IMG/VR virus record: IMGVR_UViG_3300034284_002793
Coordinates: 62,001-126,000 of that record
From: a virus
DNA length: 64,000 nt
Strand: one strand, 5' to 3'
Part shown: positions 3,168 to 62,190 of the stretch, piece after piece
How positions within the stretch are numbered: the first letter of the stretch is position 1
How the letters are laid out: every line of letters begins with the position of its first letter
Translations under genes and position numbers: made by a program
The notes under the pieces: model-generated
Told to the model about the DNA's origin: nothing
Database searches by the model: none
What the model saw: the letters and a program-made list of their open reading frames with translations, nothing else

Positions 3168-5120
3168 ATGAGAAAAAAGCGAGTACTTTTCCTTACAGAC
3201 TATGCAGGTGTAAATACTGGATTTGGTAAAAATATAAAATTACTTTTAACGTATTTATATAAAACAAAAAAATACGAATTATTTCATGCAGCTTGCGGTG
3301 TTGGTAGGGATAATCCAGAATTTCAAAAATTTCCTTGGAAAACTATAGGGGTAATACCAAATGATCAGTCTTTTATTAGCAGAATGCAACAAGATCAGCA
3401 TTTTGCCAGAATGGCCAGCTATGGAGAGCCAGAAATAGCTAAAATTGTAGAAGAAACAAAACCAGATGTTATTTTTGCTATACAAGACAGCTGGGGCGCA
3501 TTATTCGTAGCAGATAAGCCATTTTTTAAAAAAATTCCGACAGTTTGCTGGATTACATTTGATAGCCTTCCTCTTCTTCCAGACACCGTTGAAAAAGCCA
3601 GCAAGATAGCCAACTATTGGACATGGTCAGATTTTGCAGAAAATGAATTTCATAAACTTGGATTTGATCACGTAAAAACTCAATATCCATTAACTAATAC
3701 GGATAACTTTTATCCGCTTTCAGAAAATGAAGTGCTTACTATAAAGCAGCAGCATGGTATTGAGAAAGATTGTAAAATATTTGGTTTTGTATTCAGAAAT
3801 CAATTGAGAAAACTAGTTGGTACATTAATATCTGGATATTCAGAATTTTTAAAGCAAAATCCAGAGATGTCTAAAAAAACAAAGCTTTTGCTGCATACGC
3901 ATTTTGCAGAAGGGTGGGATATTATGAGATTTGCAAAGCAATATGGGGTTCCTGAAGAAAATATTTTATGCACCTATATTTGCAAAGAAACTTATAAATA
4001 CTTCATTCTCCCATACGCTGGGCAAGATATAGAAAATCCAACAACCAAAAGAAAAACATTAATAACCACAAATGTCAGTATTGGCGTAACTGATTCGCAA
4101 TTAAACGAAATATATAATATAATGGATGCCTACCTGCATCCTGCAACATCTGGCGCATGCGAAATACCAATTGTTGAGGCTGCATTAGCTGAAAAAATAG
4201 TATCTACATGCGACTATTCATTTGGCTGGAATGTTGTAAATCATAATAAGGGGTGTATTCCTATGGATTATTCACTTTACAATGAACCTCCAATGGGATC
4301 AAGTACTCAGTTTTTAAAATCTCAACCTTATCCATCATCCATATCAAAAATAATGAAAAAAATTTGCGAAATGAAGAAAGATCGCAAAAAAGAAATGGAA
4401 AGACATTCTAGAGAATGGGCATTAAAAAATTATTCAGTTTCTGTAAATGGTGAAAAAATAGAAAATTTTATAGATTCGCAAAAATTTATCGAAGATGAGC
4501 AGGCATGGGTAGACAAAGAAGTTAAAAATATCAATCCAAAAGCACAAATTCAAAATATTGATGATGACTTGCAGTGGGTATTGCAGCTTTATAGTAAAAT
4601 ATTAGACACTAATCCTGACCTCAACGATGATGGTGTTAGACATTGGATGATGCAAATTGAAAGAGGAATGCCAAGACAAAATATTGAATTATATTTTAGA
4701 GATGTTGCTAATAAAGAATTGCAAAAAGAAAATCCACAAACATTGGATGTTTTATTTGACAGTAGCGATAAGTTGAATAAATTAAAAAGACTATTAATTG
4801 TACAGCCACAAAGTGCTGGAGATATTTTTATAGTAACATCATTACTTGAATCAATCAGGTCAAAATTTACTAAAGACAAATGGAAGATATATTTTGCATG
4901 CGAGCCTAAATTTTTTGAAATCTTAGCTGGTAATGAAAACATAGATAAAATTATCCCATACAATCAAATTATGGATAATCAAATAATTATGGAAGGTCAT
5001 GGAGATCACAATGGTTATGTTGATATTTGCTTAAATCCATACTTTTCAACACAGAAGTTATTAAATTATACTCATAACAGTTATAGCATTTCTCAATTCG
5101 ATCACGAGTTTAAAAAATAA
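3168..5120 (+). CDS. Fused GT4 glycosyltransferase, DUF4214-like segment and N-terminal half of a GT9 enzyme
   Basis: A 650-residue multidomain protein. Residues 1 to about 420 form a GT-B glycosyltransferase (N-terminal VLFLTDYAGVNTGFGKN; donor-domain segment SGACEIPIVEAALAEK). Around 455-525 there is a DUF4214-like helical unit, recognised by LQLYSKILDTNPDLNDDGVRHW and ERGMPRQ. From about 535 the chain begins a GT9 (heptosyltransferase) Rossmann domain (LIVQPQSAGDIFIVTSLLES). That domain stops abruptly at residue 650, and its other half is the start of the next gene. Likely cytosolic and acting on a surface or virion glycan. The fusion and the mid-domain break are the odd features. Confidence 0.7.
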   Translation: MRKKRVLFLTDYAGVNTGFGKNIKLLLTYLYKTKKYELFHAACGVGRDNPEFQKFPWKTIGVIPNDQSFISRMQQDQHFARMASYGEPEIAKIVEETKPDVIFAIQDSWGALFVADKPFFKKIPTVCWITFDSLPLLPDTVEKASKIANYWTWSDFAENEFHKLGFDHVKTQYPLTNTDNFYPLSENEVLTIKQQHGIEKDCKIFGFVFRNQLRKLVGTLISGYSEFLKQNPEMSKKTKLLLHTHFAEGWDIMRFAKQYGVPEENILCTYICKETYKYFILPYAGQDIENPTTKRKTLITTNVSIGVTDSQLNEIYNIMDAYLHPATSGACEIPIVEAALAEKIVSTCDYSFGWNVVNHNKGCIPMDYSLYNEPPMGSSTQFLKSQPYPSSISKIMKKICEMKKDRKKEMERHSREWALKNYSVSVNGEKIENFIDSQKFIEDEQAWVDKEVKNINPKAQIQNIDDDLQWVLQLYSKILDTNPDLNDDGVRHWMMQIERGMPRQNIELYFRDVANKELQKENPQTLDVLFDSSDKLNKLKRLLIVQPQSAGDIFIVTSLLESIRSKFTKDKWKIYFACEPKFFEILAGNENIDKIIPYNQIMDNQIIMEGHGDHNGYVDICLNPYFSTQKLLNYTHNSYSISQFDHEFKK

Positions 5121-5121
5121 T

Positions 5122-6345
5122 ATGTCACATCTATTAGAAACTTACAGCTTGCAAACTGGAGCAAAGGCATCAAAGCCTTTTATAATTAAAAACTTTTTCC
5201 CAGTACCAAAAAAGTACATAACCATTCACAATTCTAGCGGAATGGGCGCAAAAAATTATGATCATTTTCAAGATGTAATTGATGAGATTTTAGTGAAGTT
5301 AAAAGACAATGGTATTGAAATTGTACAAATTGGTGGAGCAGAAGATCTAGCCCTCAATGGATGCGTTCATTTACATGGCAGAACAAATTATCACCAAACC
5401 GCATATATCATTCAAAATTCACTCCTTCATATTGGAAATGACAGTTTTCCCGTCCATATCGCATCTGCGGCGGACAGGCCCATTATAGCTCTATATAGTA
5501 TAACCACGCCAAGTATTGCTGGCCCATGCTTTAATTCAAAAGAAATAAATGACTATAAAGTTTTTTGCTTTTCTCCAGACTATAAAGGCAAAAAGCCATC
5601 CTTTAATCCCAACGAAAGTCCAAAAACAATAAATACAATAAATTTTGAAAATATTATTGAAGCAATTGAAAAGATATTAAATATCGATACTGGATATAAT
5701 ATAAAAACTATATTCAAAGGGGACAAATATCTTGCAAGAGTTATAGAATTTATTCCAGATACATTGCTTAGACCAGACTTTGCTGGCGGTAGTTTGATAA
5801 ACATGAGAGTTGATCTGTGTAACGGCGATATTGATGAAAATTTAATATTTGCAAATTTAAAAAGTAGGAAGTTTAACATATTTTTAAAAAATTCTAAAAA
5901 AATTAAAAATTTGCATATATTGCCTATGTTAAAAGAAAATATTGCTAATATATTCATTGATGTTACTGATGAGGTGGTAGATATTGAATACATATCATCA
6001 TTAGTAAATTATGGAATAAAACCAACAATATTATATACTGGAGAAGATGAAGATTATTTTAACGAAATTAAAATAAATTTAATAAATTTTAATTTGAATT
6101 TTATAAAATACTCTCCACAAAAAATAAAAATAGAGGATATTGTAAAAAATAACAATATTGATAATATTATATTCAAAACAAATCGCCTCATTTTAAGTTC
6201 TGGAAAATTATACCTTTCCATAGCATCTTACTTAAATGGTCAAAGCTCAAACAGTAATTTTGAAAAATTAAACGAAATTAAAAACTACAAAGATCTTGAC
6301 AAAGAATTAGAATTCTGTTATCTTTATATCAAAGAAGATAAATAA
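5122..6345 (+). CDS. C-terminal half of a GT9 heptosyltransferase-like enzyme plus unknown domain
   Basis: A 407-residue protein. Residues 30-130 are the nucleotide-sugar binding half of GT9: ITIHNSSG..KNY, IVQIGGAEDLALNG, LHGRTNYHQTAYII and IGNDSFPVHIASAADRP, equivalent to the GNDTGxxHLA region of heptosyltransferases. There is no N-terminal acceptor domain, which is instead at the end of the preceding protein. The ATG lies one base after that protein's TAA, giving a reading frame offset of +1. Residues 200-407 form an alpha/beta domain I do not recognise. The two proteins most likely assemble into one active GT9 enzyme, or are joined by frameshifting at the A-run before the stop. Confidence 0.7.
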   Translation: MSHLLETYSLQTGAKASKPFIIKNFFPVPKKYITIHNSSGMGAKNYDHFQDVIDEILVKLKDNGIEIVQIGGAEDLALNGCVHLHGRTNYHQTAYIIQNSLLHIGNDSFPVHIASAADRPIIALYSITTPSIAGPCFNSKEINDYKVFCFSPDYKGKKPSFNPNESPKTINTINFENIIEAIEKILNIDTGYNIKTIFKGDKYLARVIEFIPDTLLRPDFAGGSLINMRVDLCNGDIDENLIFANLKSRKFNIFLKNSKKIKNLHILPMLKENIANIFIDVTDEVVDIEYISSLVNYGIKPTILYTGEDEDYFNEIKINLINFNLNFIKYSPQKIKIEDIVKNNNIDNIIFKTNRLILSSGKLYLSIASYLNGQSSNSNFEKLNEIKNYKDLDKELEFCYLYIKEDK

Positions 6346-8865: not shown

Positions 8866-11135
8866 GAAAATGTATTAGATGTATTGTTTCTTTTTGAAGA
8901 AGTTATTATCCTAAAAGATTTTGGACGTATAGGTATTTCTTTATATGAGTAAGAAACTCTAAGACCCCTGCTATCTAAAGATGCGCTTAAAGACTCTAAA
9001 CCAGGGACAATTGGCAGGAAAAAACCATCACATTCCGCAGACAGAGTAGATAGCCATTTTTGACCATTTCCACCAATAGCCGCAGGAACTTCAAAAGAAG
9101 TAGATGGTTCATTTTCATTTGGCGTCACATCGGTTACGATAACACTGTGCGATAGCCCATAATCGCTATTGACTGGACCAGAAAATCCCCAAGAATTTAT
9201 AGCCTGAGCATATCCAGTTTGATTAGATGAGGAATATTCGCTTTTTATGGTTCTAATCGCTTTAAAGCTAGCAAGTGATGGCATAACTACCTTTATTGAC
9301 TTTCCATTACAATCAATAGAGTAAGATTTTCCTCTGGCATGCTCTAATCCTGGAGATAATTCTGCTGAATTTTCGGAACCATTATTAATTACAACATCAC
9401 GATTTGCATTAATTAAATTTGGAACAATATCTGCGCATTCATCAACTATATCAGGCTTGTCTTGAGGCGGAACAGGATCAAGTATTGCATTTGGGTCCTC
9501 ATAATCATAAACTTCTGTTAAGTCATTTGGATTTTCAGATTCAGATGCTGAAGTAATAGTAATATTATATCTTGGTCGCTTTACAAATATAATAACCTTT
9601 CCATCTTCTTCTATTTGCTTTCTTAATCTTTCCCCAGAAGATACGTAACCCCCAGACTCTTCATTGTTAGTAGTCGGTGCAACTAAAGTAACTGGAGTGC
9701 CTTCTTGGGGGAGGCTTTTTTGGTCATAAATTTGACATATTAAATCATGAGAAACTGTTTTAATACAATCTTCAACTGCCTGAGCAAAATCTGCCGCCTC
9801 AACATCTCCAGAAACATGCTCGCTTACACTGCGCCAATAGCCCTTTCTAACAATATTATTTTGATCTTCAAATGTGCTATTGTATGGATTTTTGCCTCTC
9901 TGTGAAGGGGGTGGATTAAAAGAAGTTTGTATTTTTTTAAAATTAAACTCGTCTCCACCAGAGCCATTAAAATCGTAAGATTCATCATAAGGATAATACA
10001 ATTCTTGAGTATATTCCTTTGATTGAATATTATTATTCAAAGGATATGCCAAATAAAAATCACCATCTCCATCAATATTTAAATATTTAAATATTGCATC
10101 TCGAAAATTAGTATTTTTTGAATCAAAATTAAAGTTTGTTGATAAAAAATTTCTCCATTTTGGATCTGTAAGATTTAAAGACATTTCAATTTTAGATAAT
10201 ACATTATAGCCTAATTTTCTATAGTCTCCATTTGTTAATGCATTATAAACTGATAATGATGGGCAAACTTTTTCTAAAACTTCATTATCGGTTGGAAAAT
10301 TTGGGTGAAGAATTGGAGAAATTGAAACATGCTTATTATCTGTAATATTTAACGCAGCTTCTTGGGTTTGTTTAGTTGGCCATCTTTCAAAAAACCAAGA
10401 TGATTGAGAAGATACCCCATCTCTAGTCGCTCCATAATCAAGAGACAAAATCCCACAACCTCCTTGAGGAACATTAATTCTTATAGAGCCATTTTTTATA
10501 GCAACTATTTCATCTTTTCTCCAGTCCCACCACCATCCAATTCCCACATCTGAATAAATACCACCTAAAACACTTCTGTATGTTCCTTCATAAGAGCACC
10601 TTAAATTTTCAGAAATTTTAGGCGCACCAATTATAGCTAATGCTTGATTTGCATTATATGTGACATTGCTAGAGTCACATGGGTTTGATGACCACTCTTC
10701 CTGCCCCAAACCTCCAGCCGAATAGCCAGCCTGTCTTTGCACAACTATATTTAAATTTTTAACTCCAAAACTAAAACTAACTCTTCCCCTATCATAGCTC
10801 GCATTTACTGCTGGAACACTTACGGTTTTTGCTATATTAATTGGCCTTCCGCCAAGCCCTCTTCTAAATAAAACTATGCATTTTTGATCAAGAGTTATAG
10901 AATTATCTATATACTCATAAGTTGTTAAAAATTTTCCTTGTTCTTTATGCGTAGAATAAGAAATTAGCTGCCCAATAAATTCTATACCACCAATGCCGCC
11001 GATATTAGATCGATTAAATCCACGATCGCCCAATGTAGTAACTGATAATTTTGCTGGAGAATCGCTAACAGAAGCGCTTAAAGATAGCGAAACTATATCT
11101 TTATTTGCTCCAATACTTCTTATTTGAATAGCCAT
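8862..11135 (-). CDS. Large tail-tip protein, possible tail hub
   Basis: A 757-residue protein. The N-terminal 90 residues carry GIEFIGQLISYSTHKEQGK and a following YEYIDNSITLDQKCIVLFRR strand pattern that recalls beta-barrel modules of tail hub proteins. The centre includes a Trp-rich segment (GIGWWWDWRKDE) and the C-terminal third is strand-rich. It lies after the tape measure and the two paralogous tail proteins, where hub or baseplate proteins are normally encoded in long-tailed phages. The hub assignment rests on position and the N-terminal pattern only. Confidence 0.45.
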   Translation of the reverse strand: MAIQIRSIGANKDIVSLSLSASVSDSPAKLSVTTLGDRGFNRSNIGGIGGIEFIGQLISYSTHKEQGKFLTTYEYIDNSITLDQKCIVLFRRGLGGRPINIAKTVSVPAVNASYDRGRVSFSFGVKNLNIVVQRQAGYSAGGLGQEEWSSNPCDSSNVTYNANQALAIIGAPKISENLRCSYEGTYRSVLGGIYSDVGIGWWWDWRKDEIVAIKNGSIRINVPQGGCGILSLDYGATRDGVSSQSSWFFERWPTKQTQEAALNITDNKHVSISPILHPNFPTDNEVLEKVCPSLSVYNALTNGDYRKLGYNVLSKIEMSLNLTDPKWRNFLSTNFNFDSKNTNFRDAIFKYLNIDGDGDFYLAYPLNNNIQSKEYTQELYYPYDESYDFNGSGGDEFNFKKIQTSFNPPPSQRGKNPYNSTFEDQNNIVRKGYWRSVSEHVSGDVEAADFAQAVEDCIKTVSHDLICQIYDQKSLPQEGTPVTLVAPTTNNEESGGYVSSGERLRKQIEEDGKVIIFVKRPRYNITITSASESENPNDLTEVYDYEDPNAILDPVPPQDKPDIVDECADIVPNLINANRDVVINNGSENSAELSPGLEHARGKSYSIDCNGKSIKVVMPSLASFKAIRTIKSEYSSSNQTGYAQAINSWGFSGPVNSDYGLSHSVIVTDVTPNENEPSTSFEVPAAIGGNGQKWLSTLSAECDGFFLPIVPGLESLSASLDSRGLRVSYSYKEIPIRPKSFRIITSSKRNNTSNTFS

Positions 11136-11146
11136 AAATTGAAAAA

Positions 11147-12931
11147 TTACAGATTATAAATGATTACACCAGTATTGTAGGTTATTATATCAATTTCATC
11201 GCTTTTTTCTACTTCTTGATAATCAAATCCAAGATAAAGCCTTTGCCCGTTTAGCCAAATCATGGATGTTTTTTTATTAAAATTAAATGGTACTAAAAAA
11301 TAAGAACCAGAAGTGTTTTTAATATTATAAGTACCAAAGCCTAATGTATTTTTTTGAACTGTTAATACATTATAGTTTCCACTTATATTTCTTAATATCG
11401 TATTGGTACCACTGTAATCAATTCCAGAATTTAAAAGTTGACCATTTAAAAAAACAAATGAATTATTAAAATTTAAACTTGATATATTATTGCCACTATT
11501 TATCTGCCCAGTCATTAACAGTTCAGATTTTGGCCAAAAATCAATAAGTGAATTATTTTGATTTATAAAACCATAATTTGAATTACTAAATATTTTATTT
11601 CCAGAAATAAAGTAATCTTCTGATGGTAAATAGTTAATATTTCCACTTTGAATAAGCTCATCATATCCAGAAGATCTCGTTTGCAATTGCCCATTATAGT
11701 ATAATCCAGAAAAATCTTCGCCTATAATGCTATCATATCCATAAGAATTATCTGCATTAATATAATAAAGATTTGTGAAGTTTATTCCCGCATCAATTCC
11801 AGAATATCCATATATTGATAAAATATCATTAGGATCGATATTAAATGATAAAGATATAGCATTTTGATAATTATAAATATATTCTGGCCGAGATACAAAT
11901 GCGGAATTATTAGTAATTGAATATTCGATATAATAACCAGAATCATATTCAAATACATTTGTTCCAGTAAATACACTTGAGCAAAGTGAAAATAAATTTT
12001 GTCCACTAGAATATCCTAAAAAATAACCAGTAAAAACTTTTTGAGCGAATTGATTGAAAATCTCATTATTAAAATCTAAAAATGATTCGTGTGTTGCAAA
12101 ATATTCTCCACTACCAGTACTTAATACAATCTCATTCAGCACGCCACTTGATTGAGCAGAGCACTGTGTTATTTTTATAATATCGCCATTTAATATGCCA
12201 GTTTGTCCAGAGATAGCGCCAGTAATAGTATTTGAATTAATAGATGAAATAATGCCACTAACAAATTCATTTTCAAATATGGAAGAGCTTAAATAATCTG
12301 AATTGTAAATAAATATTTCAGCAACTTCAGCAGATAAAAATCTTCCAGATGGCAAGCTTTGACTTCCTCCAATATAATAATTATTTGATTTTTTAAAATT
12401 TTCATCAAGTGGAGCAAATATTTTTTGAAACGAATTAGATTCTGCATCAAATAAGCCCATTGAAATAGAATTCGATCCATTAATAGAAAAGCTTACAATT
12501 CCAGTTTTATTTGCTTTTAAGCTGTGGCATACAGTAATAGGCCCATAAATTTTATGAGCGTATTCAAAATATGGATAGCCAGCATAGTTTATTCCAAAAT
12601 TGATTCCGGAATCATAATTATAATTTGCAAAAAAAACATTGTCAGATTTTGCATTCCCTAATTTATACGCAAAAATAAAAGATAAAGAATCTCCACTAAA
12701 ATAATTTAATTTGGCATAGCTTTGGCCATCAAAACTTGCAAATCCAGATTTCGTCCAAAAATTTCCAGAATTTACCAGCTGTAATTGTTCAGCGCGACTT
12801 GTCCAGCTTTCGCTTGGAATATTAATTAGCCCAGATATTCCAGTATTAGAAAAATCAAAATAACCAACTATCTGCTCCGTAGATAGATTTTCATTTTTAT
12901 CAAAAAAATATTTCATTGAATTTGCTGGCAT
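11147..12931 (-). CDS. Tail protein with a concanavalin A/LamG-like lectin domain
   Basis: About 594 residues from the ATG at 12931, which overlaps the preceding stop as TAATG; a further in-frame ATG at 12946 exists but would enlarge the overlap. Residues 1-230 look like a jelly-roll glucanase/lectin fold: FASFDGQSYAKL, LSFIFAYKLG, FGINYAGYPYFEYAHK, VSFSINGSNS, then AEIFIYNSDYLSS near the end. The rest is strand-rich with many SG and TG turns. Such domains bind surface glycans, so a receptor-binding or baseplate role is likely. Confidence 0.55.
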   Translation of the reverse strand: MPANSMKYFFDKNENLSTEQIVGYFDFSNTGISGLINIPSESWTSRAEQLQLVNSGNFWTKSGFASFDGQSYAKLNYFSGDSLSFIFAYKLGNAKSDNVFFANYNYDSGINFGINYAGYPYFEYAHKIYGPITVCHSLKANKTGIVSFSINGSNSISMGLFDAESNSFQKIFAPLDENFKKSNNYYIGGSQSLPSGRFLSAEVAEIFIYNSDYLSSSIFENEFVSGIISSINSNTITGAISGQTGILNGDIIKITQCSAQSSGVLNEIVLSTGSGEYFATHESFLDFNNEIFNQFAQKVFTGYFLGYSSGQNLFSLCSSVFTGTNVFEYDSGYYIEYSITNNSAFVSRPEYIYNYQNAISLSFNIDPNDILSIYGYSGIDAGINFTNLYYINADNSYGYDSIIGEDFSGLYYNGQLQTRSSGYDELIQSGNINYLPSEDYFISGNKIFSNSNYGFINQNNSLIDFWPKSELLMTGQINSGNNISSLNFNNSFVFLNGQLLNSGIDYSGTNTILRNISGNYNVLTVQKNTLGFGTYNIKNTSGSYFLVPFNFNKKTSMIWLNGQRLYLGFDYQEVEKSDEIDIITYNTGVIIYNL

Positions 12932-14463
12932 TAGTTTTCCTCCCAAGTAATTTGAAATGATATTCTCCCATCAGAAGTTTCATTTGTGAATGTTTTAGTT
13001 TTTATAATTGTCATCGCGTATCTGTTAGCAATTGATTCTATATATGCTTTGGCTTTAGCAGAATTTCCAACCTCTACTTCCATTTGACCGTCAAACGATA
13101 CAGTGGTTTTAGATCTATGCGTGCCATAAGCTGCCCAATCACTACAAAGTGGTTGTACAAATTCATATTGCTGCAATCCATATGTTTTAGTGACTGTATA
13201 GGAAATATTTTTTATGTAACAAGGCAAAGATGCATTTATTGGATTTATATCCCAAGATATTGAATAAGATAATGACCCATCTATCTGATTTTCAGATAGC
13301 GATTCTGAGCTTTGCTTGAAATGAGTAACATTAAAATCATTATTTAACCCAGTAATATTCTTACGAAATTCTTGCATTGGATTAAAAGAATTTTGGAAAA
13401 AGTTATTTACTTGCGCAAGTCTTTCTGTTGGATTTCCAACCCTACATCTTATATTAGAATTTAAAGATGCAGAATTTTCCGAATCACCTCCATAACCAAT
13501 ATTATAAGTAGCTGTCGAATCTATATATATAATTGGACTATTATCATTATTGAATGTAACTGAAAATGAAATTTGCTTATTTGATAAATCTTCATCTACG
13601 CCAGAGTTTACATAAATACTATTTAGATCTCCAGAATTTGTACATCCGCTATAAATATCAAAAGTTAAATTCCACAAGTTCAGACTTTTATACCTATTTC
13701 TTATCAAATCCATTGATCCACTTATGCCAGCATTTAATGTTCCATTGATTGTTGCTGTGGAAAAATTAAATTTATCATACCCAATATCAACAGAATATCT
13801 TAATAATCCATTTCCCGTTTGTGACTGATCAATCGTATAATTTTCAATCCATTGACAGTTGCCATTCATTCTATCCATTGTTTCGGATATAGAATTTAAT
13901 ATTGGAAAAGATTGTTGATTTATTTTTATAAAAGCTGTGCTTGGAATATTTTTTAGTCCAGTTCTGGAGTAAACAAAATTTGTAGCATTTTTAATTGCTG
14001 GCAAGTTTGAATTAATACCAACAGCAGAAACCCTATGTGTAAGAGATAGCGTTCCGTCATTATTTTCAACAAATTCAAAAGAATCTTCCGGCTCTTTAAC
14101 AAAAAATTGCCCACTAAAAATATCAGAATCAAATGCTTCAATTTCTACTGTATAAGGCAAAATAAAAGCATAGTTTGACTCATCAAAGTTTACACCCCTA
14201 ATTAAAGCATAATCTGATTTAAAAATATCAGAACCATTTTCCTTAATCTGAAATCTTTTAAAATTTTGTGAAAAATTATTTATTAATGCATTTTGCTTTC
14301 CAACCATTCCAGAATAATCAGTCCCGCACCCAACTATTTCACCTACAAGAGAAAATGATTTGTTTGAGCCCCACCACCCATCAAATTCTTGAGAATATGA
14401 AACAAATGGCGTATATGAAACCCCACTAAAAGCATTTTTATTATTATACCAAATTTCGTTCAT
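12931..14463 (-). CDS. Tail-tip structural protein, paralogue of the next gene
   Basis: A 510-residue protein. It shares layout with the 518-residue neighbour at 14465-16021: an opening LVGEIVG-type strand, an I-R-G-V-N-F-D or I-R-N-I-N-V-D strand, a Y-T-V/A-E/D-I-x-x strand, and later S-E-S-L-S-E-N/ITEVTES plus Cys-containing repeats around Y-S-V-S/D-x-x. The C-terminus contains a beta-rich domain with AKAKAYIESIANRYAMTIIKT. The pair probably arose by tandem duplication and forms part of the distal tail. Function beyond structure is unknown. Confidence 0.5.
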   Translation of the reverse strand: MNEIWYNNKNAFSGVSYTPFVSYSQEFDGWWGSNKSFSLVGEIVGCGTDYSGMVGKQNALINNFSQNFKRFQIKENGSDIFKSDYALIRGVNFDESNYAFILPYTVEIEAFDSDIFSGQFFVKEPEDSFEFVENNDGTLSLTHRVSAVGINSNLPAIKNATNFVYSRTGLKNIPSTAFIKINQQSFPILNSISETMDRMNGNCQWIENYTIDQSQTGNGLLRYSVDIGYDKFNFSTATINGTLNAGISGSMDLIRNRYKSLNLWNLTFDIYSGCTNSGDLNSIYVNSGVDEDLSNKQISFSVTFNNDNSPIIYIDSTATYNIGYGGDSENSASLNSNIRCRVGNPTERLAQVNNFFQNSFNPMQEFRKNITGLNNDFNVTHFKQSSESLSENQIDGSLSYSISWDINPINASLPCYIKNISYTVTKTYGLQQYEFVQPLCSDWAAYGTHRSKTTVSFDGQMEVEVGNSAKAKAYIESIANRYAMTIIKTKTFTNETSDGRISFQITWEEN

Positions 14464-14464
14464 A

Positions 14465-16021
14465 TTATGCTATAGTCGTTACATTATAAGTTGCACTTCT
14501 GTCCATCGGACTTATAGATAAAGACTCATCTTGTTTTATTGCTGATGTTGAAATCCTCATATCCTCTGGAAACGAAACCAAATTTACATTTTTTCCATAT
14601 TTTCTATTTTTATTTATAGTTACTTCATAAAATGTTTTTTGATCATGCTGCTGCCTAACAATGCTATTATTTATATAATAATCAGTATAAATATTTACAG
14701 GATATTTTTCAGAAATTGACTCCTTCTCCTCTTCTATTCCGTTTGGATTATTATTTATAGTCTTGTTTGTATAAGATACGCTATACTGAACTGTTCCATT
14801 GTACTTGCTAGAAGTAAATGTTTCATTGCTTTTATTTAATATGCCGCTAGAACTACAGCGGTTTGTATTTATTGATAAAAATCTAGAATATAAACTATTT
14901 ATTTTTGACAATAATAATGATTCTTTTTGATTGTAGCCATAAATAGCATTATTATATTTTCTATCTGTATTTGGCACGCCATCACCTTGAATAGACAGAT
15001 TAGCTGTGCAGTTAATTAGGTAAGTATCGCCAAGATCGACAGATGTTTCAATAGACCAATCATACCTATTCTCTATAAATGGATTATCCGTATAGACTGT
15101 TTCTAATTCAATTGTACCATTAAATCTATCTACGTTATATCCTTGGGTTATTGGAAAATTATTAAGAGATCCAGTCACATAATTAACATAAAAATTCTGT
15201 GATCTTTGATAACAGTTAGGCTTTAATTCTGCTAGTTTATTTTTAACGGTTGTAAATTTAGGATCTTGATTGGCCTGTATCTGAACAGATTCAGTAACTT
15301 CAGTAATTCCATTTTCATCTCTACGAAGTGAATATGAAAAATCAGCGTTTGATGAATCTCCGCTTATGTTTTTATCTAACCTTTCTGTAAAAGAAAAAAT
15401 TTTATTTATTACATCAAAGCTTTCTTCGTAATATTTTTTTCCAGATAAAAAATTAGCATTCCCACTTATAAGATTAAATGGCACTTCTTTTCCAATAATT
15501 CCAGACGCAATATTTTTTGCTAATAAATCCGCGCTACCATACGCAAGCGCATTTTCAAAACTAAAACTCACACTATGTTCATAGCTATAATTATTGCTTG
15601 AATCAAGATCTAAAGAAAAATTTTCCGAAAAATCATTCATTAAATGAAGGGATAATCCTGTAAAATTTTGGAGACCAGTAAAATAATTACCAGTCATATT
15701 ATATAAATTACCCGTAGATAAAATTAAAATATCAGCCGTATATTCACCACGCCTTACCCAGTTTCCTTCATCTACATTAATATTTCTTATATATCCAGAT
15801 CCAAAATTTATCCCATTTAAAACAATATCATCGCTAACTTTTGCCAAATTTATAAGGGCATATATTCCACTTGATACCCCACTTACACCACTTGTGTTGT
15901 AAAAATCTGCAATTGTTCCACGTACAGTAAGATTTTTTTCAATACTATAAACAAAATTATCTCCTAAAAATTTAGGAGAATGTGAGTATGATAGTAATGC
16001 TGCATTATTAAAAGTTATCAT
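14465..16021 (-). CDS. Tail-tip structural protein, first gene after the tape measure
   Basis: A 518-residue protein encoded immediately after the tape measure; its ATG overlaps the tape measure stop by one base. The gene order is that of a distal tail protein, which usually adapts the tube to the tip. The sequence is strand-rich with an N-terminal part (FVYSIEKNLTVRGTIADFY) matching the start of its paralogue at 12931-14463. No enzymatic motif is visible. A distal-tail role is inferred from synteny. Confidence 0.5.
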   Translation of the reverse strand: MITFNNAALLSYSHSPKFLGDNFVYSIEKNLTVRGTIADFYNTSGVSGVSSGIYALINLAKVSDDIVLNGINFGSGYIRNINVDEGNWVRRGEYTADILILSTGNLYNMTGNYFTGLQNFTGLSLHLMNDFSENFSLDLDSSNNYSYEHSVSFSFENALAYGSADLLAKNIASGIIGKEVPFNLISGNANFLSGKKYYEESFDVINKIFSFTERLDKNISGDSSNADFSYSLRRDENGITEVTESVQIQANQDPKFTTVKNKLAELKPNCYQRSQNFYVNYVTGSLNNFPITQGYNVDRFNGTIELETVYTDNPFIENRYDWSIETSVDLGDTYLINCTANLSIQGDGVPNTDRKYNNAIYGYNQKESLLLSKINSLYSRFLSINTNRCSSSGILNKSNETFTSSKYNGTVQYSVSYTNKTINNNPNGIEEEKESISEKYPVNIYTDYYINNSIVRQQHDQKTFYEVTINKNRKYGKNVNLVSFPEDMRISTSAIKQDESLSISPMDRSATYNVTTIA

Positions 16022-19000
16022 TACTTAAGATTATTTTGCGCTTTTAATTGTTGCATTTTCGCACTGAATTCATCTAATATTCTTTGTTTTTCTGCTGTTA
16101 ACTTAAGATCTAAATCCTCTCGTGTTAAACCGCCCAAAGTAAAAGATACTGGGCCAGGATTTATATTTATAGACGGGACAACTGAAGGGGAATCAGTCAA
16201 GCTTATTGGTTTTTCAAAATTAGATGGCTGCGGCTTATCTTTGCCAGACTTTTCTGCAGTAGTTGTGAAATATTCCAACATAGCTTGTACTGAACTTTCT
16301 ATTAATTTGAAATTTGCAGCAGCTTGTTCTGCTGAAGTTGTAAGATCAAAAGCCATAGCGTTAACAATTGTTTCATATGCCTTAAAAGCTTCGCTTCGAT
16401 CAGCAAATCCGCCAAGTTGCTGAAGTGCCTTTATAGCAGCCTCAACCTCTTTCGACGAACCTTCAAACTTGCCACCTTCCGGTAAAAATCTATTTTTTAA
16501 ATAATCAATACCTAATTTGCTTGTGCCAGTAGCCTCCCCAACAGCCTGTTGGTTTAACATTCTTGCCCTGTTTTGATAATCTACTGGAAGCCCAAGATCA
16601 AAAGCCCTTTGCGCTGCGTTATTACCAGCCTGCCTCCTCACATTCATTACATCTGATCCAAATCTTGTAAATATCTCTTCTGGAGTGGCGCCCAAAGACA
16701 AAGCCTCTTTTATTCTTTCTTGTGATCTTCTGGCAACAAACTCATTTTGTCCAATTTCACCACCAAAAAAATCACTCTCTAATTGGCTAATCGCAGATTT
16801 GTTTTTATTATAGCTTAATAAGCTATCTATATCTTGAGACAGTTGCTGCGCTATTTTTTTAGAAGCATCCTTTATTGCTCCAGCCGCAAGGCTTCTAGTT
16901 TTTTCTGCTTGGCCTTTGATATTTATACCAACTTCATCGAAAACTTCTCCATATAATTCTGATAAAACCTTTTTAAAACCAGAAGATTCTTCTATAGCTC
17001 TTGGGTCAATGTTTAATGTATCACTTATTAATTTTCCAAAATCTTTTTGTATTTGTTCTTTTCCGCCCAATTCTTTTAATCTAGTTTCTAAATCTGAATC
17101 TGTTAAGCCTTGAGTTATACCTGCATTTATTTGTTTTTTAAAAGCATCTCTAATATCTTTTGTCATTTCTCCAGAATATGTTTCTATTGGTGGCTGCTTG
17201 CCTACCAGCATGCCTGGGGCATTTGGGCCAGAGCCAGATCTTCCAACAAACTCAAAAGCCCTTGCTATTATAGATCTTCTTTGTGTATTCAATAACTGCT
17301 CAACTGATACATCCGCTTGATTCCTGGCTGTTTGTTCTGCTTGTTTTTGTGTAATTTGACCAGAAACTTCCGTTAATCCTTGCATTCCGCGCTCTTTAAT
17401 TGCATTTGTAAATTTTTTAGCAGTTTCAGGATCAAAACTATTTAAATAATTTATATAATTTTGCTCTGCTTTTCTAAGCTCTGACTGTGGAGCATTTTCT
17501 TCTAATAATCTAGTATATGTTTCGTAAGATGTTGCTAGCCCTTGAGTTTTTTCGTTAACCTTGGCCAATTCTTCGGTAGATTTTTCTGCTTTAGCCTGCA
17601 ATTCTGGAAGATTTGTGTTTAATTGTTTTAATATATCTGTTAATCCTATTAGCCCGCCAGTAACCGCACCAAGTGCCGCGCCGACTGCCGCTCCCTTTGG
17701 TCCAAATGCCATGCCAACCATTCCGCCAGTTCCAGCAAAAGATGCAATTTGGCCAGCGCCACTTACTGCAGATGCCCCAACCCTTCCGCCTTGTGTATTT
17801 TGCGGTATTGCGTTTGCAATTGTTTCTGCAATGATTGGCGCAGCAAATGCCGTTCCAATACCTGGTCTAAAGCCTTTTGCTGATGATATTCCCCGTTGAA
17901 GAATGCCTGCACCTGACCTTCTAGCTGCACGTTGAGCTTGCGCCCTTTGCTCAATATCAAGCATGGCAGCATTATATCCAGACGATCCTCTTTGTAGTGG
18001 GCCAGGCCCCATAGTTGACATTTTTTGAAGATTTGCTTTTTGTTGGGATATAGATTTCCTTTCAAGCTCAGCCCTTTGCTTATACGTTTCCTTTAATTCA
18101 TTTACATCTTTTTTTCCTAATTGAGAAATACTAGCAAACAATGCGATTTGCGCGGCAACTGCCCCAATAGATTTAGCAAAATCTGAAATACCGCCTTGGG
18201 CTTCACCTTCACTACCAACTGCAAAATTTGGAGTAAATCCGGTAGCATACATCCCCATACCTTTGCGCTCGCGCCCAATTGCATCTTTTAATCCATTAGG
18301 TTCGTCACGCGTGTTTGTTACTGCAACTGGATTTCCACTCTTATCAAAGTGCGCGCGAATTTGTGAAACTGGAACTCCACGATTTGTAGATGAAAAATTT
18401 GGTATAAAACCAGAAGCTTTTGATCTTGATAATTGTCCAGGTTTAATTTTTAATTTATTACTGATAAAAGCTTTTCTAGCAACATCATTTATTAAATTTT
18501 GTTGATTCCCAATTTTTGCTTCGTAGTCTCCAGGAATATTATTAAATAATTTTCTTAATTTGTCATTTGGGTTAACAAAGTCAATAATAGCACTTGATCC
18601 ACCAGACCTTCCGGCCTGTGTAACAGCAGAATCTGTAGCCTGCGTCACGGCACTTTCAAATATATTACCAGCAATACTTCTAAAAGATCCATAATTTGCA
18701 AGCTGTTGTACTGATTTTATTCTAGCATTTGGAGAATAATTGCCGAAAATGCTTATAAATCGATTTGTAAAATCAATAACTTGATCTCCTAATAATTTTT
18801 CTAACTGAGCATCTTCTGGTTTAACTTTGGCATTGTAACCACTTGATTTAAATCCTACTTTATAAGTTTTTCCATTTGGTGTTTTTTTATCTGTAATAAG
18901 GCCCTTTTGATCTGTATTGAAAAATCCTGTCTCATCTTTTATCCCAGCTTTTTCGCCATATATTAAACTTAAAGTACTAGTTTTGCCAAGATCAATAGTA

Positions 19001-21063
19001 CTAGATGAACTTTTTCCCAGAGATGGTTTTTTTGCTGTGCCTAGTCTAGAATTAACAGCTTCAGCCGTAAATCTTTGACTTAATTGTGATCTAGAATATT
19101 GATTGCTTTGTATTGCCTCTTCTAATGAAATATTTGGTGGCAATTTTGTTTTTGCAAAATTTGGAATAAAACCAGAAGATGAAATTTTACGAGCACCACT
19201 TGGCAACCCATACTTTGCTTTCATATCTTTGTTAAAGATAGCAGTTCCATCCCCACCAGCAAAATTTGGCACAACCCACTCTCCGGTATGTGCAGTTATT
19301 TTACCTTTCTTGCCTCCACCAAATGCAAAATTCGGAATAGTAACGGGCCTATCAGTTGCCGGATTTGCGCCACCAACTCTTGCATTAATATTCGCTTGCT
19401 CAATTGATTCTGGTAAATATCCAGCAGCAGCAGTTTTTGTCTTTGTAGCTACAAACTGCCTTCCTCCTATTGTTTGTACCCCAACAGATCCAGCAAGTGA
19501 TTTAGATATCGATGCAGCAACAGAATTTTGCCTTTGCAAAGCTGCTGTCTGTTGTTGTATAACTGCCAAATATTCTTTGGCCGCAGTTGAAACAGAAACC
19601 TGCCCCTTTAAAATAGAATTATACAAACCGCTATTGTTTTGTAAAAATTTTGCTATATTTTGCTGAACCACCACCTGCTCTTTTCCTGCCTGATTTGTTC
19701 CCAAAATACTTTTAAAAGCCTCTGCTCCATACTTTGTAAACTCAGCTAATAACTTAACGATTATTGCCGTTGCTAAAGCGAGCCCAGGCCCAGCAATAAA
19801 TTTACCAAGACCATCAATTACCCCTCTACCAATCTGACCACCAACGCTTTGCGAATCTGCATTTCCCACAGACTCTGTTAATAAATTTGTTAAGTTTAAA
19901 ACATTTCTAGCAGCATCTCCAAATAACCCCTCTCCAAGAGTTCCAGCAACTTTTTGAACATTTGCCAATGTTTTTGTTCCCAACGCAGATAACGTTTGAT
20001 TTAACTGTTCATTTCTTTGAATGGCCTGATCGGTACTCGATAATGATGTTTTAAGCGCACGGTCGTAAATTGAATACTCCTTACCTAAATCACCTAAAGC
20101 AGCTTTTAAGATGTTAATCTGGAAAACGCCGCCAACCTGCTCTGCTACATAATTTTTTTGAGTAGCTCCAAGCGTATCATAAACTAATGCAAGCTCTTTT
20201 AAAAGTTGAATTTGTGTTTTTACCTGACCGCTTTCATCAGTTGCGCTAATTCCAAGACCGCCCAAAACCTCTTGAACTTTTTCTCGACCAAGTCTTGTAA
20301 AAATTGTTTTCAGTGAGTTTCCTATAACCGCACCTCCACGAGCAGTAATTTGCTGCGCAGTTGTCACTAAAGCTATCAATTCGTCAAAAGAAATTCCAGC
20401 ATCGTCAGCAGAAGATCCAACACGACTCAATGCATTAGCCAAATCTGCAGAGCTAACAGCAAATGCGGCATCAACATTAGCCAGCTTATTTACAATTTCT
20501 GTCGCTTCCAATGTCGCACTCTGAAAAGAGTTCATTGTAGCAGTAAGAGCCGCAACACTTGCTGCAGCATCCAGACCACTTAAACGAGTCAAGATTAGCG
20601 CTGCCTCAGTACGTTTTAATGTTTCTTCTACCCCAAGGCCCTGACGAGACAACTCTGTTGCTGCTTCTGCAACAACATCAAATGCTTGCGCTGTATTTCC
20701 AGCAATATCAAATAATGAGCTTCCAAAAGCCGCAAGATTTTTTTCTGACAAATTTAATATAACATTTATGTCTTGTAATTTTTTCTCTGTATTTACAAAA
20801 CTCTGAAATAAAGACACTACTGCATTTTGTAATGCAAAAATACTTCCAGCAGCTGCGCCGAATGCAATAACACGAGCATTAGCAGCAGCCAAAGACTTAT
20901 CAATTTCAGTTATTTGGCCGCTTAATTTTCCTAATGGTTGAGCGGCCCCCCTACCACCAGCCTGCACATCAATAACTAGTGGCTGCTTAGCAACTTGGTT
21001 TATCTGTTGCCTAAGCTTCGCTGTATTACCGCTAACATCTACGCTAATATTTGGGTTTGCCAT
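16021..21063 (-). CDS. Tail tape measure protein with an embedded nuclease-like domain
   Basis: A 1680-residue TP901-type tape measure. Residues 60-350 hold the family core (MNSFQSATLEATEIVNKLAN, then DLANALSRVGSSADDAGISF and GNSLKTIFTRLGR). By the usual 1.5 angstrom per residue it would set a tail of about 250 nm. Between residues 575 and 950 the chain changes character: five P-N-F motifs (about 577, 599, 635, 889 and 945, several as GFIPNFA/S or GFTPNFA) punctuate it. The 640-885 segment looks like a PD-(D/E)XK nuclease: E803 in GNIFESAV, D828 in AIIDF, and E848-x-K850 in DYEAKIG. A hydrophobic Gly/Ala-rich stretch follows near 1090-1150. It may be co-injected with DNA. Confidence 0.85.
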   Translation of the reverse strand: MANPNISVDVSGNTAKLRQQINQVAKQPLVIDVQAGGRGAAQPLGKLSGQITEIDKSLAAANARVIAFGAAAGSIFALQNAVVSLFQSFVNTEKKLQDINVILNLSEKNLAAFGSSLFDIAGNTAQAFDVVAEAATELSRQGLGVEETLKRTEAALILTRLSGLDAAASVAALTATMNSFQSATLEATEIVNKLANVDAAFAVSSADLANALSRVGSSADDAGISFDELIALVTTAQQITARGGAVIGNSLKTIFTRLGREKVQEVLGGLGISATDESGQVKTQIQLLKELALVYDTLGATQKNYVAEQVGGVFQINILKAALGDLGKEYSIYDRALKTSLSSTDQAIQRNEQLNQTLSALGTKTLANVQKVAGTLGEGLFGDAARNVLNLTNLLTESVGNADSQSVGGQIGRGVIDGLGKFIAGPGLALATAIIVKLLAEFTKYGAEAFKSILGTNQAGKEQVVVQQNIAKFLQNNSGLYNSILKGQVSVSTAAKEYLAVIQQQTAALQRQNSVAASISKSLAGSVGVQTIGGRQFVATKTKTAAAGYLPESIEQANINARVGGANPATDRPVTIPNFAFGGGKKGKITAHTGEWVVPNFAGGDGTAIFNKDMKAKYGLPSGARKISSSGFIPNFAKTKLPPNISLEEAIQSNQYSRSQLSQRFTAEAVNSRLGTAKKPSLGKSSSSTIDLGKTSTLSLIYGEKAGIKDETGFFNTDQKGLITDKKTPNGKTYKVGFKSSGYNAKVKPEDAQLEKLLGDQVIDFTNRFISIFGNYSPNARIKSVQQLANYGSFRSIAGNIFESAVTQATDSAVTQAGRSGGSSAIIDFVNPNDKLRKLFNNIPGDYEAKIGNQQNLINDVARKAFISNKLKIKPGQLSRSKASGFIPNFSSTNRGVPVSQIRAHFDKSGNPVAVTNTRDEPNGLKDAIGRERKGMGMYATGFTPNFAVGSEGEAQGGISDFAKSIGAVAAQIALFASISQLGKKDVNELKETYKQRAELERKSISQQKANLQKMSTMGPGPLQRGSSGYNAAMLDIEQRAQAQRAARRSGAGILQRGISSAKGFRPGIGTAFAAPIIAETIANAIPQNTQGGRVGASAVSGAGQIASFAGTGGMVGMAFGPKGAAVGAALGAVTGGLIGLTDILKQLNTNLPELQAKAEKSTEELAKVNEKTQGLATSYETYTRLLEENAPQSELRKAEQNYINYLNSFDPETAKKFTNAIKERGMQGLTEVSGQITQKQAEQTARNQADVSVEQLLNTQRRSIIARAFEFVGRSGSGPNAPGMLVGKQPPIETYSGEMTKDIRDAFKKQINAGITQGLTDSDLETRLKELGGKEQIQKDFGKLISDTLNIDPRAIEESSGFKKVLSELYGEVFDEVGINIKGQAEKTRSLAAGAIKDASKKIAQQLSQDIDSLLSYNKNKSAISQLESDFFGGEIGQNEFVARRSQERIKEALSLGATPEEIFTRFGSDVMNVRRQAGNNAAQRAFDLGLPVDYQNRARMLNQQAVGEATGTSKLGIDYLKNRFLPEGGKFEGSSKEVEAAIKALQQLGGFADRSEAFKAYETIVNAMAFDLTTSAEQAAANFKLIESSVQAMLEYFTTTAEKSGKDKPQPSNFEKPISLTDSPSVVPSININPGPVSFTLGGLTREDLDLKLTAEKQRILDEFSAKMQQLKAQNNLK

Positions 21064-37080: not shown

Positions 37081-38985
37081 TTAAATTAGAGTTGGTATAA
37101 ACTGTTCTCTTTTAATTTGAACATGGGTTTTGATTAATTCAAAATAACACTTTACGCCCCAGTTTCCTAATAATAGGGTGCTATAGTTATCTTTTCTAGG
37201 TTTATTATTTGCCGTTGAAGTTCTGGCCGATCTTGGAAGGTCAAAGCTTTGATGACCTCTGGAGGTTGATGTTACCTCAATATTTGCACACTGTTCTTTT
37301 GTTGAAATAATAATATCATCCTGAAGTTCAATAAATTCTCTTATTGATAATTTTCTATTATCTTCTTTAGAGTCGCCCTCTATAACGCCAGATCCATGAG
37401 GAAATACTAATTTTAATGGAATTCTTAAATTAAACATATAAGACATATATTCTGGATGATTGCTCGCGCGAGAAGCAAACCATATTTTTTTATGATCAAT
37501 GCATGACTGCAAATAAGAATTAGATCTCATAATCCAATCCGTGCTTGGCGTTTGTCTAATGCACATGCATCCCATGTCTGGACTATATTGTTTTTTTGCT
37601 TTAATAAGCATATCCACTTGATCCTGACCATCTTTAGTAGAATCCCATTCTGTTATATATGTTATTTTCTTATTTGCACCTTTAAACAATTCGCTTTCAT
37701 TGCATGCATCAATTATTGTATCTATGTTTGAAGAGTCTGCTATAATTAAAACCGTATTAAAATGCGTTAATACATAATAGATATATTTTATGTGGTCCTG
37801 TAAATCTGCGCCAATTCTTTGATAGCCATGTACCAAAACCCCTTCTTCTTTTTCTTCATCAATCTCTATAACCGACATTGCAAAAAAGTCTGATGATGCA
37901 CTTTTTGAATAATTTGGGTCAATTGATAATATATATTTTTTTAAAGGATCACCAGTAACTTTAGAATGTGGATATTCACCATCTGGAATGGTACATTCAT
38001 TCATTTTACGCATGGAAAAATATCCATCGCCACCATCACGAAATTGTGCGCCATATTCGCGTTGAAATGAATCTTCTGATATACTTGCTCTTTGTGACTG
38101 AATAAACTCTCGGTTTAATATGGTTGCTGGTATAGCTTCCCATCCCATTTGTGATATAAAATAAGTTGGCCTTTCCTCTTCCTTATTATTCATCGTCAAA
38201 ATATCTGGACGTTCTACAAAATCATTCCAGTCAGAGTACATTTTATATAAATGCTGAAATTGATAAGATGCAGATGACAAGCAAATCATTTGCGCGGCAT
38301 TTTCAAAAATCATTTTATTATTAGGATGTAATGTGCCAGCTTTAATTAGCTCGTCCTCTAATTTTCTAACTTTAATTCTAAACGCAGCATCTCTTGGTGA
38401 AGACAGGAATGGTGCTAATACATCATTAATCATCTGTGGAGATAATAGCAAAACCTCATCAAGGATAAGAACGTCACAGCGCATACCTCGCGTATCTTCA
38501 GAAAGTGGAATGGCGCATATATATCCACCATTAACGTCCCATTGAAATTTATCGTTTCTTAAATATGGTTTTTTGTCAAAGCATGATCTTGCAAGCTGAG
38601 CTTCTTCTGTGTTTAATAGCCTTACAATTTCTTCAAAAATTCTACGGCTTGTTCTAAAATTCGCTGAAGCAATAACAATTCTAGTACCAGGCTCAAATAT
38701 GCATTTTAATATACAATACCAACCAGCTAAAGTAGATTTCCCACCACCACGACTAAAAATAAGCATGCAATTATTCTTTTCAAACATTGCATTTATATGC
38801 ATAACCTGCATAGGCTCCATATTAATACCAAGAATTAATTGTGATGTAAATCCAATATTATGGCGCAAAAATTTTGCTAAAGTTATTTTAGCCGTTCTAT
38901 CATCAAGCTCTCCATGAAGATTTAGCAGTTCTTTATTTACATCTGCTATATCTTTTACTGGTTGATTTCCTGCCCAAATTGCCAT
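37081..38985 (-). CDS. terL: Terminase large subunit
   Basis: A 634-residue DNA packaging motor. The ATPase half has Walker A SRGGGKST at residues 78-85 and Walker B VLILDE at 172-177, with a coupling SSAS segment near 237. The nuclease half has YILSIDPNYSKSASSDF (catalytic Asp356), LIIADSSNID (Asp418) and a late acidic LQDDIIIST region, as in RNase H-fold terminase nucleases. It starts one base after the ERCC4-nuclease stop, and no adjacent gene is an obvious small terminase. It acts at the portal to translocate and cut concatemeric DNA. Confidence 0.92.
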   Translation of the reverse strand: MAIWAGNQPVKDIADVNKELLNLHGELDDRTAKITLAKFLRHNIGFTSQLILGINMEPMQVMHINAMFEKNNCMLIFSRGGGKSTLAGWYCILKCIFEPGTRIVIASANFRTSRRIFEEIVRLLNTEEAQLARSCFDKKPYLRNDKFQWDVNGGYICAIPLSEDTRGMRCDVLILDEVLLLSPQMINDVLAPFLSSPRDAAFRIKVRKLEDELIKAGTLHPNNKMIFENAAQMICLSSASYQFQHLYKMYSDWNDFVERPDILTMNNKEEERPTYFISQMGWEAIPATILNREFIQSQRASISEDSFQREYGAQFRDGGDGYFSMRKMNECTIPDGEYPHSKVTGDPLKKYILSIDPNYSKSASSDFFAMSVIEIDEEKEEGVLVHGYQRIGADLQDHIKYIYYVLTHFNTVLIIADSSNIDTIIDACNESELFKGANKKITYITEWDSTKDGQDQVDMLIKAKKQYSPDMGCMCIRQTPSTDWIMRSNSYLQSCIDHKKIWFASRASNHPEYMSYMFNLRIPLKLVFPHGSGVIEGDSKEDNRKLSIREFIELQDDIIISTKEQCANIEVTSTSRGHQSFDLPRSARTSTANNKPRKDNYSTLLLGNWGVKCYFELIKTHVQIKREQFIPTLI

Positions 38986-61993: not shown

Positions 61994-62190
61994 TTACCCC
62001 CAATATCCAAAAAGCTCTTGAGTCAAACGGAGTTCGTTTCTTTGCAAAAGACTTTCTCATGGAAGGTATGCGGAAAGACTGCGTTGACGCCGTGCATGAT
62101 GCAAAACTCGTTTACGAATTGCTAAAAGAACGCATGGAAAAAATGCTTGCAATCGAACCCGAAGACGAATACATTAAAGCCAATGAGTAA
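61990..62190 (+). CDS. Small helical protein, unknown
   Basis: A 66-residue charged helical protein (MITPNIQKALESNGVRFFAK, then YELLKERMEKMLAIEPEDEY). It overlaps the upstream gene by 4 nt and the downstream gene by 8 nt, so the three are translated as a coupled group. Function unknown. Confidence 0.5.
   Translation: MITPNIQKALESNGVRFFAKDFLMEGMRKDCVDAVHDAKLVYELLKERMEKMLAIEPEDEYIKANE

Follow-up and report, generated by a model that had tools for sequence, protein, structure and literature searches.

A motif-bounded, exchangeable and probably nuclease-type cassette in a phage tape measure protein

Tape measure proteins (TMPs) are usually viewed as the rulers of phage tails and as entry pores. 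Polymorphic toxin systems are composed of a constant carrier and of variable toxin-like domains that are exchanged by recombination, the variable domain being C-terminal. A TMP-related protein bearing an effector domain is described among the contractile injection system (CIS) effectors of the Tme/Sle1 type (PMC11126660, PMC13277306). Tme is presented as distantly homologous to TMPs and as active as an endonuclease (PMC11126660), and the functional domains of Sle1-type effectors are reported to vary by species and to be exchangeable (PMC13277306). Polyvalent proteins of phages and conjugative elements carry several enzyme domains in one large polypeptide, and their co-entry with DNA has been proposed (PMC5512222; cited in PMC7824862). 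A survey of TMP mosaicism describes a mosaic signal in TMPs, of which a genuine recent case was not confirmed by its authors (PMC10684548). The locus considered here is the TMP gene of the IMG/VR virus record IMGVR_UViG_3300034284_002793, a record of 132,627 bases, whose positions 62,001 to 126,000 form the stretch of 64,000 nucleotides that was analysed (the window). In this gene and its relatives from a widespread, uncultivated phage group, cassettes bounded by a short motif of the GFIPNFA type are exchanged between close relatives, and the commonest cassette contains a nuclease-like domain. With a probability of about one half, the cassette would be an exchangeable nuclease-type cargo in the TMP that is delivered together with the genome.

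The TMP gene (16021..21063, minus strand, as are all its parts given below) is the longest listed open reading frame (ORF) of the window and encodes 1,680 amino acids (aa). Its identity is given by a PhageMin_Tail domain at residues 124-312 (20128..20694; Pfam E 1e-25) together with several PHROG tape-measure families. An earlier note, made from the sequence alone, had pointed to residues 640-885 (window 19146..18409) as a probable PD-(D/E)XK nuclease domain embedded in this protein. The residues on which it relied are located exactly as numbered: E803 (18655..18657) within a G-x-x-F-E stretch of a predicted helix, D828 (18580..18582) within I-D-F, and E848 and K850 as E-x-K (18514..18522) on a predicted strand, 19 residues separating D828 from E848. 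A further conserved lysine, K864 (18472..18474), lies in the next predicted helix. The segment is also flanked as described, with GFIPNFA at residues 631-637 (19153..19173) as the upstream boundary of the cassette and GFIPNFS at residues 885-891 (18391..18411) as the downstream one, and the two motifs bracket the domain as a unit. The stretch that was aligned (in the 22-sequence alignment A1) and modelled, here called the nuclease-like domain, covers residues 677-884 (18412..19035). The DNA pattern for two GFIPNFA/S motifs occurs twice in the window and in none of 100 shuffles. The observation itself is thus confirmed, and the interpretation given to it is partly supported.

Exchange of cassettes is seen in pairs of TMPs that are near-identical over their N-terminal 500 residues and yet carry different cassettes; loci are cited below by their L numbers. 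For example, the TMPs of L054 and L085 are 98.0% identical over the N-terminal 491 aa and 96.2% over the C-terminal 400 aa, with nucleases only 28.9% identical over 149 aa. At the DNA level, a match of 94.8% extends up to and including nucleotide 1743, with which the GFIPNFA codons end, and a match of 95.8% begins at nucleotide 2476, exactly where the GFIPNFT codons start. In the pairs L161/L237 and L064/L330, DNA similarity is likewise lost at the final base of the motif match. The cassettes of L161 and L237 are 30.6% identical over 124 aa, and the surrounding DNA, followed from a point 0.6 kb before the TMP gene, is 96.2% identical as far as the motif and 97.5% identical over 10818-12968, a stretch that takes in 1.75 kb past the end of the gene. 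As these flanks are near-identical while the cassettes differ, no adjacent gene changes with the cassette there, and in this single pair no linked immunity gene was seen to do so. Breakpoints were also counted in 87 pairs whose N-termini share 80% identity or more. After de-duplication, 60 of 84 breakpoints in the cassette region lie no more than 12 nucleotides from a motif, whereas 1,000 random draws placed 7.9 there on average and never more than 17, an excess that has to be read as an upper estimate, and to that extent tells against the preferred reading, because alignment ends (those of high-scoring segment pairs) favour any conserved motif. Exchange is better evidenced by the clean pairs. 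The window TMP is 72.5% identical to that of L337 through residue 640 and 25-32% identical thereafter, and its similarity to L335 and L336 stops at residue 642. Against a clean boundary in the window, its similarity to L334 continues to residue 893, with 55% identity overall.

The four positions do not vary freely, as an alignment check of widely diverged homologues demonstrates. The position of E803 is E in 82 of 84 profile-fitted domains and D in the other 2, whereas those of D828, E/D848 and K850 are each kept in 83 of 84. Reduction of 160 domains (E <= 1e-4) to less than 75% identity left 112 non-redundant domains, in which the G is present in 112/112, E in 109/112 (3 with D), D in 111/112, D/E in 111/111 and K in 111/111; the position of K864, filled in 102 of the domains, holds K in 93 and Q in 9. 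E, D and (D/E)xK occur in this order both in the set of 112 and in a 107-sequence alignment. The latter, the MAFFT alignment A5, is independent of the profile and contains 107 of the 112 domains, five having been omitted by hand and L002 swapped for the identical window copy; G, D and K are invariant in it, and F and E reach at least 90%. In the equally profile-independent MAFFT alignment A1, G, E, D, K and K are invariant, and identity to the window copy drops to 14-30% while the active-site residues stay near-invariant. All aligned domains were collected with profiles that include the motif, so that copies without it may be under-counted. The ratio of nonsynonymous to synonymous substitution rates (dN/dS) of the domain has a median of 0.195 and a maximum of 0.544 (dS being finite in 50 of the 52 pairs), which indicates that the domain is under purifying selection. 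It is a real, selected family and probably a catalytic one. A purely structural domain, acting as a spacer or touching the tube wall and keeping its polar residues for folding, would suit proteins that are chiefly structural and a domain whose activity we infer. It is nonetheless the least probable of the explanations weighed here, as it sits poorly with a carboxylate triad and two lysines that remain near-invariant at such low identity.

A first scan of IMG/VR returned two identical copies only. The GFIPNFA DNA pattern gave at least 120 stretches in the same database, and the variants GYIPNFA and GFVPNFA at least 120 each; since each of the three motif scans reaches this number, the phage group must be larger than seen. 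These scans alone, with L001-L003 and L124-L149 excluded from the counts, supplied 242 distinct motif ORFs, of which 188 have at least two motifs and 146 have the N-terminal region of the window TMP; the domain is recognised at E <= 0.01 in 134 of the 242, and below 1e-6 in 111. The best domain-profile score among 2,987 other ORFs of the motif loci is E 0.26. Among the 113 TMPs that span the cassette region, i.e., run from the N-terminal region through 250 residues beyond the last motif, the domain is carried by 94 (74 of 93 when loci fetched by homology are left aside), an SNase-like cassette by 2 and neither by 17, although a looser E-D-(D/E)xK pattern is present in 6 of these 17.

Such near-universal presence would suit housekeeping, as performed by a nuclease for DNA entry or trimming, whose substrate would be the DNA of the phage itself or DNA located at the membrane and which would be no weapon. 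In Tme, an endonuclease of the EndA type, which serves in DNA entry, is described as joined to a TMP-like part (PMC11126660), and the lambda TMP is reported to contact inner-membrane proteins on entry (PMC13190303), both of which are in line with this explanation. However, nucleases are less than 40% identical in 31 of the 64 pairs that have one in both members (some of the local alignments being short), and housekeeping leaves swaps of 24-40% identity between near-identical TMPs unexplained. Exchange for strongly diverged versions favours conflict, over host range, defence or competition, and an entry nuclease is therefore considered improbable.

The same slot also accepts other modules. Among 310 cassettes of 85-700 aa, 130 have the nuclease and 180 fall into 62 other clusters; the nuclease is the only cassette of this size in 70 of the 106 TMP ORFs that have both the N-terminal region and a nuclease cassette. 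Two Pfam scans covered 89 cluster representatives of 178 cassettes (A4) and 31 of the 62 clusters (A6). On the other cassettes they found SNase, GNAT acetyltransferase (best E 1.3e-4) and a cytidyltransferase-associated region (best E 6.1e-8, two members), the matches being otherwise mostly at chance level. The SNase match is clearest in the cassette at L102:8760-9341 (-), which scores 38.4 bits where the cut-off is 21; at 16.7 bits, the cassette of L109 stays under it. A search seeded with L102 located SNase-like cassettes in 6 TMP ORFs. The nuclease-like domain is present in 0/6 of these and in 141 of 206 other ORFs with at least two motifs (Fisher p 0.0012, a value that is optimistic, to the disadvantage of the preferred reading, because some of the six SNase-type TMPs are closely related). 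Judged by these profile matches, an SNase-like module replaces the nuclease-like domain in a few TMPs.

Exchange boundaries that sit at short conserved DNA, combined with nuclease content, could also be the mark of a selfish cassette, whose nuclease would cut TMP genes bearing another cassette and spread by gene conversion, as in homing without splicing. Phage nuclease genes have reportedly been found at genetic-exchange boundaries. Frequent empty sites would be expected in that case, whereas only the 17 of 113 spanning TMPs mentioned above are without a recognised nuclease, 6 of them with the looser pattern, and the 180 of 310 cassettes that are no nucleases share the motif boundaries. A selfish cassette is thus very improbable.

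Some further cassettes deserve mention in their own right. Those at L133:6553-8070 (+) and L048:2069-2653 (-) resemble GNAT acetyltransferases, and L133 represents a cluster of 40 cassettes. The cassette at L050:4163-6145 (-), representative of a 22-cassette cluster, contains a P-loop-like GTAGIGKTT, and the one at L103:1269-2585 (-) has a weak AAA_30 match (E 0.0025, under the cut-off). By eye, L133, L095, L023 and L040 contain what we take to be lookalikes of HAD (DWDGT, DFDRT), kinase (GSGAESHAFK) and ART (LYRG) motifs, to which Pfam gives no support. Two of the other cassettes, compared with PDB sequences, gave chance-level matches only.

A nuclease is the best reading of what the nuclease-like domain would be, judging from its conserved residues and, independently, from the use of the slot by another nuclease family, SNase. 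The order and spacing of these residues fit the PD-(D/E)XK superfamily, and so does the helix with a conserved lysine that follows. The structure of the window domain was predicted by AlphaFold2 from 22 sequences, with a mean predicted local distance difference test (pLDDT) score of 80.3 and a predicted template modelling (pTM) score of 0.75, and that of the homologue L068 from 107 sequences, with values of 84.7 and 0.77. In both models a long helix bears the E, the D is located at or next to a short strand, a further strand carries the (E/D)xK, and the later K belongs to the helix that comes after it. The segment had been described in the earlier note as without the helical character of the rest, which is contradicted by the three long helices of the AlphaFold2 model.

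Several results weigh against a PD-(D/E)XK nuclease, and with it against the reading of the cassette as nuclease cargo. In both models the D strand is separated from the (E/D)xK strand by a short helix, and the three consecutive core strands that canonically connect the E helix with the helix after it are seen in neither. With a fold match defined by E <= 0.001, the best Foldseek values against the PDB are E 0.32 and 1.8 for the two models, and E 0.095 against BFVD for the first model. VIA-align against the PDB reaches Z scores of at best 2.8 (root-mean-square deviation (rmsd) 7.0, 115 aligned) and 3.4 (rmsd 9.3, 81 aligned); these best matches are unrelated folds. No PD-(D/E)XK enzyme is prominent among the fold matches listed, a result that leaves room for the fold. 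Pfam assigns no family to the window domain, to the 22 members of A1 or, at E <= 0.004, to the 107 sequences of A5, and PDB sequence searches with the window domain, A1 and A5 return chance-level matches only. A crude hhalign profile comparison with Mrr_cat, the one PD-(D/E)XK family compared, gives a probability of 0.1%; the Mrr_cat set consisted of 25 sequences picked by regular expression from loci L345-L377, and the GNAT control gave 0.03%. Net charge, +14 for the window cassette, was considered as a sign of DNA binding and was dropped because cassettes other than nucleases are more positive than nuclease domains: 178 of 180 other cassettes carry positive charge (mean +4.9 per 100 aa), as do 122 of 145 nuclease domains (+2.5).

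Since the models are PD-(D/E)XK-like in their active-site pattern only, with no fold match, membership in the superfamily is unproved. Compared with that superfamily, the domain has no confirmed fold and no family-level match; it may have a reduced or altered PD-(D/E)XK core or another fold. The earlier interpretation holds for the conserved E/D/(D/E)xK pattern, for purifying selection and for the bracketing of the domain by the two motifs, and falls short on the fold, given the lack of a confident PDB match; the delivery of an effector and its target are plausible. An enzyme with an E/D/(D/E)xK site on an unrelated fold, e.g., a phosphodiesterase or some other metal enzyme that targets nucleotides or signals, would agree with the missing fold and profile matches to solved structures and Pfam and with the helix predicted between the D and (E/D)xK strands, and sibling cassettes do resemble non-nuclease enzymes such as GNAT acetyltransferases. 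This explanation has some weight and is still rather unlikely, as the four conserved residues and their spacing match PD-(D/E)XK enzymes, and as SNase-like modules take the place of the domain in some TMPs.

Hemopexin-type lectins were a rejected candidate: the match of E 0.0009 obtained with A1 covers the GxxFE stretch alone, and the value with A5 is E 0.06. Cassettes at L142:5281-5754, L290:2881-3789 and L173:4621-5229 display an E..D..(D/E)xK arrangement nearer to the classic PD-(D/E)XK, in L142 as PD-x11-E-x-K; none of the three is joined by the domain profile or has a Pfam match. In the cassette at L124:5365-5979 (+), a weak DUF6998 match (E 0.0074, under the cut-off) lies over the FE..D stretch.

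If the cassette is nuclease-type cargo, residues ~640-884 would form a removable module, likeliest a metal-dependent nuclease with a PD-(D/E)XK-type site made of E803, D828, E848 and K850, which occupies the slot between GFIPNFA-type motifs. Recombination within the motif codons or next to them would swap modules between related phages and leave the remaining TMP near-identical, providing a constant delivery platform with changing cargo. At tail ejection, the TMP would exit with the DNA and then insert in the inner membrane or cross it. The module would act on DNA in the new cell or at its entry, be it that of the host, of a resident prophage or plasmid, or of a competing phage. We infer catalysis, the fold, the ejection of a folded or refolding module and the target. 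A folded domain of 200 residues is hard to fit inside the tail tube, which counts against such delivery. A glycine zipper GAAVGAALGAVTG is present in the window TMP at residues 1124-1136 (17656..17694), C-terminal of the cassettes; among the 113 spanning TMPs, zippers of this kind are found beyond the last motif in 41, before the first motif in 0 and after shuffling in 2. TMPs exit the tail together with the DNA and encounter the inner membrane; for lambda, it has been reported that an inner-membrane protein labels the TMP while DNA is injected (PMC13190303). In the type VI secretion system (T6SS) DNase effector Tde1, a glycine zipper is described as required for membrane passage into the target cell, and the authors of that study point out a glycine zipper in TMPs (PMC10240207). 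From the lambda labelling, the zipper and Tme together, the module would be expected to reach DNA in the infected cell.

Cultivated phages offer no direct help in this regard. The nuclease-like domain has no match by tblastn in 50,697 phage records, nor have the last cassette or the L040 cassette with its C-terminal part, and none of these records reaches 80% coverage of the window TMP. Matches to the window TMP in them are confined to residues 6-524 among the 40 listed of 96. No cultivated phage with this architecture was found, a further point against the proposal. The conserved N-terminal pattern was found in seven genome contigs, all metagenome-assembled, from bins of Flavobacteriaceae, Flavobacteriales, Halobacteriovorax, Verrucomicrobiales and Neomarinimicrobiota; because all seven are in metagenome-assembled bins of different groups, no host is claimed. 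The domain profile, searched against 148 genomes of one phylum, matched only the genome already known to carry such a contig, which has two loci, one with a two-motif ORF.

In the window TMP, the nuclease is the sole cassette apart from a short last one at residues 892-941 (18241..18390). The latter includes VTNTRDEPNG, and the EPNG-type stretch takes the form of 10 distinct strings among 120 TMP ORFs. GFTPNFA follows at residues 942-948 (18220..18240), and a motif-like copy, WVVPNFA, precedes the cassette region at residues 596-602 (19258..19278). Elsewhere in the window, an ORF at 5122-6345 (+), beside the tail genes, matches Glycosyltransferase family 9 (E 4.7e-14), and its neighbour at 3168-5120 (+) has a DUF4214 match slightly under the cut-off. 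A weak match to a terminase large subunit (E 4.7e-4, under the cut-off) is found at 37081-38985 (-). The neighbouring structural genes gave no Pfam or PHROG family at E <= 0.01 in searches of 10 proteins each.

If the proposal is true, each infecting particle of this group delivers effectors ahead of phage gene expression, with consequences for early host takeover, superinfection and counter-defence. Because the exchange points are exact, the question of cargo is testable, and the GFIPNFA motif offers a way of searching phage tails for cargo domains, thousands of which are as yet unread. In a wider form, held only tentatively, the TMP would be a polymorphic injection platform with a near-universal nuclease slot and optional enzyme cassettes, exchanged at motif codons and traded as anti-host or anti-competitor enzymes, the main family possibly having an unseen fold.

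In the open-access PMC literature that was searched, neither the GFIPNFA-type motif nor such cassettes are described in phage TMPs. The Tme/Sle1-type proteins, as they are described, belong to bacterial injection systems and carry their functional domains at the C-terminus, whereas the present case is a phage record with an internal, GFIPNFA-bracketed cassette. The nuclease family of the window domain also differs from that of Tme and is not recognised by Pfam. Because the domain is internal (677-884 of 1,680) and the protein has no Pfam nuclease match, it is not filed as Tme. In the polyvalent-protein paper, the main text does not contain the term "tape measure" (PMC5512222); here the platform is the TMP itself, and exchange is motif-bounded. 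With respect to the survey of TMP mosaicism, the pairs described above show exchange at nucleotide resolution. A variable, putative effector domain exchanged on a constant carrier is found here as in polymorphic toxin systems, from which this case differs in that the cassette is internal and that, in the one pair compared, no neighbouring gene changes with it. A motif-bounded, exchangeable cassette that is probably a nuclease thus extends what is described of TMP-borne effectors and of polymorphic toxins, and is not of a wholly new kind.

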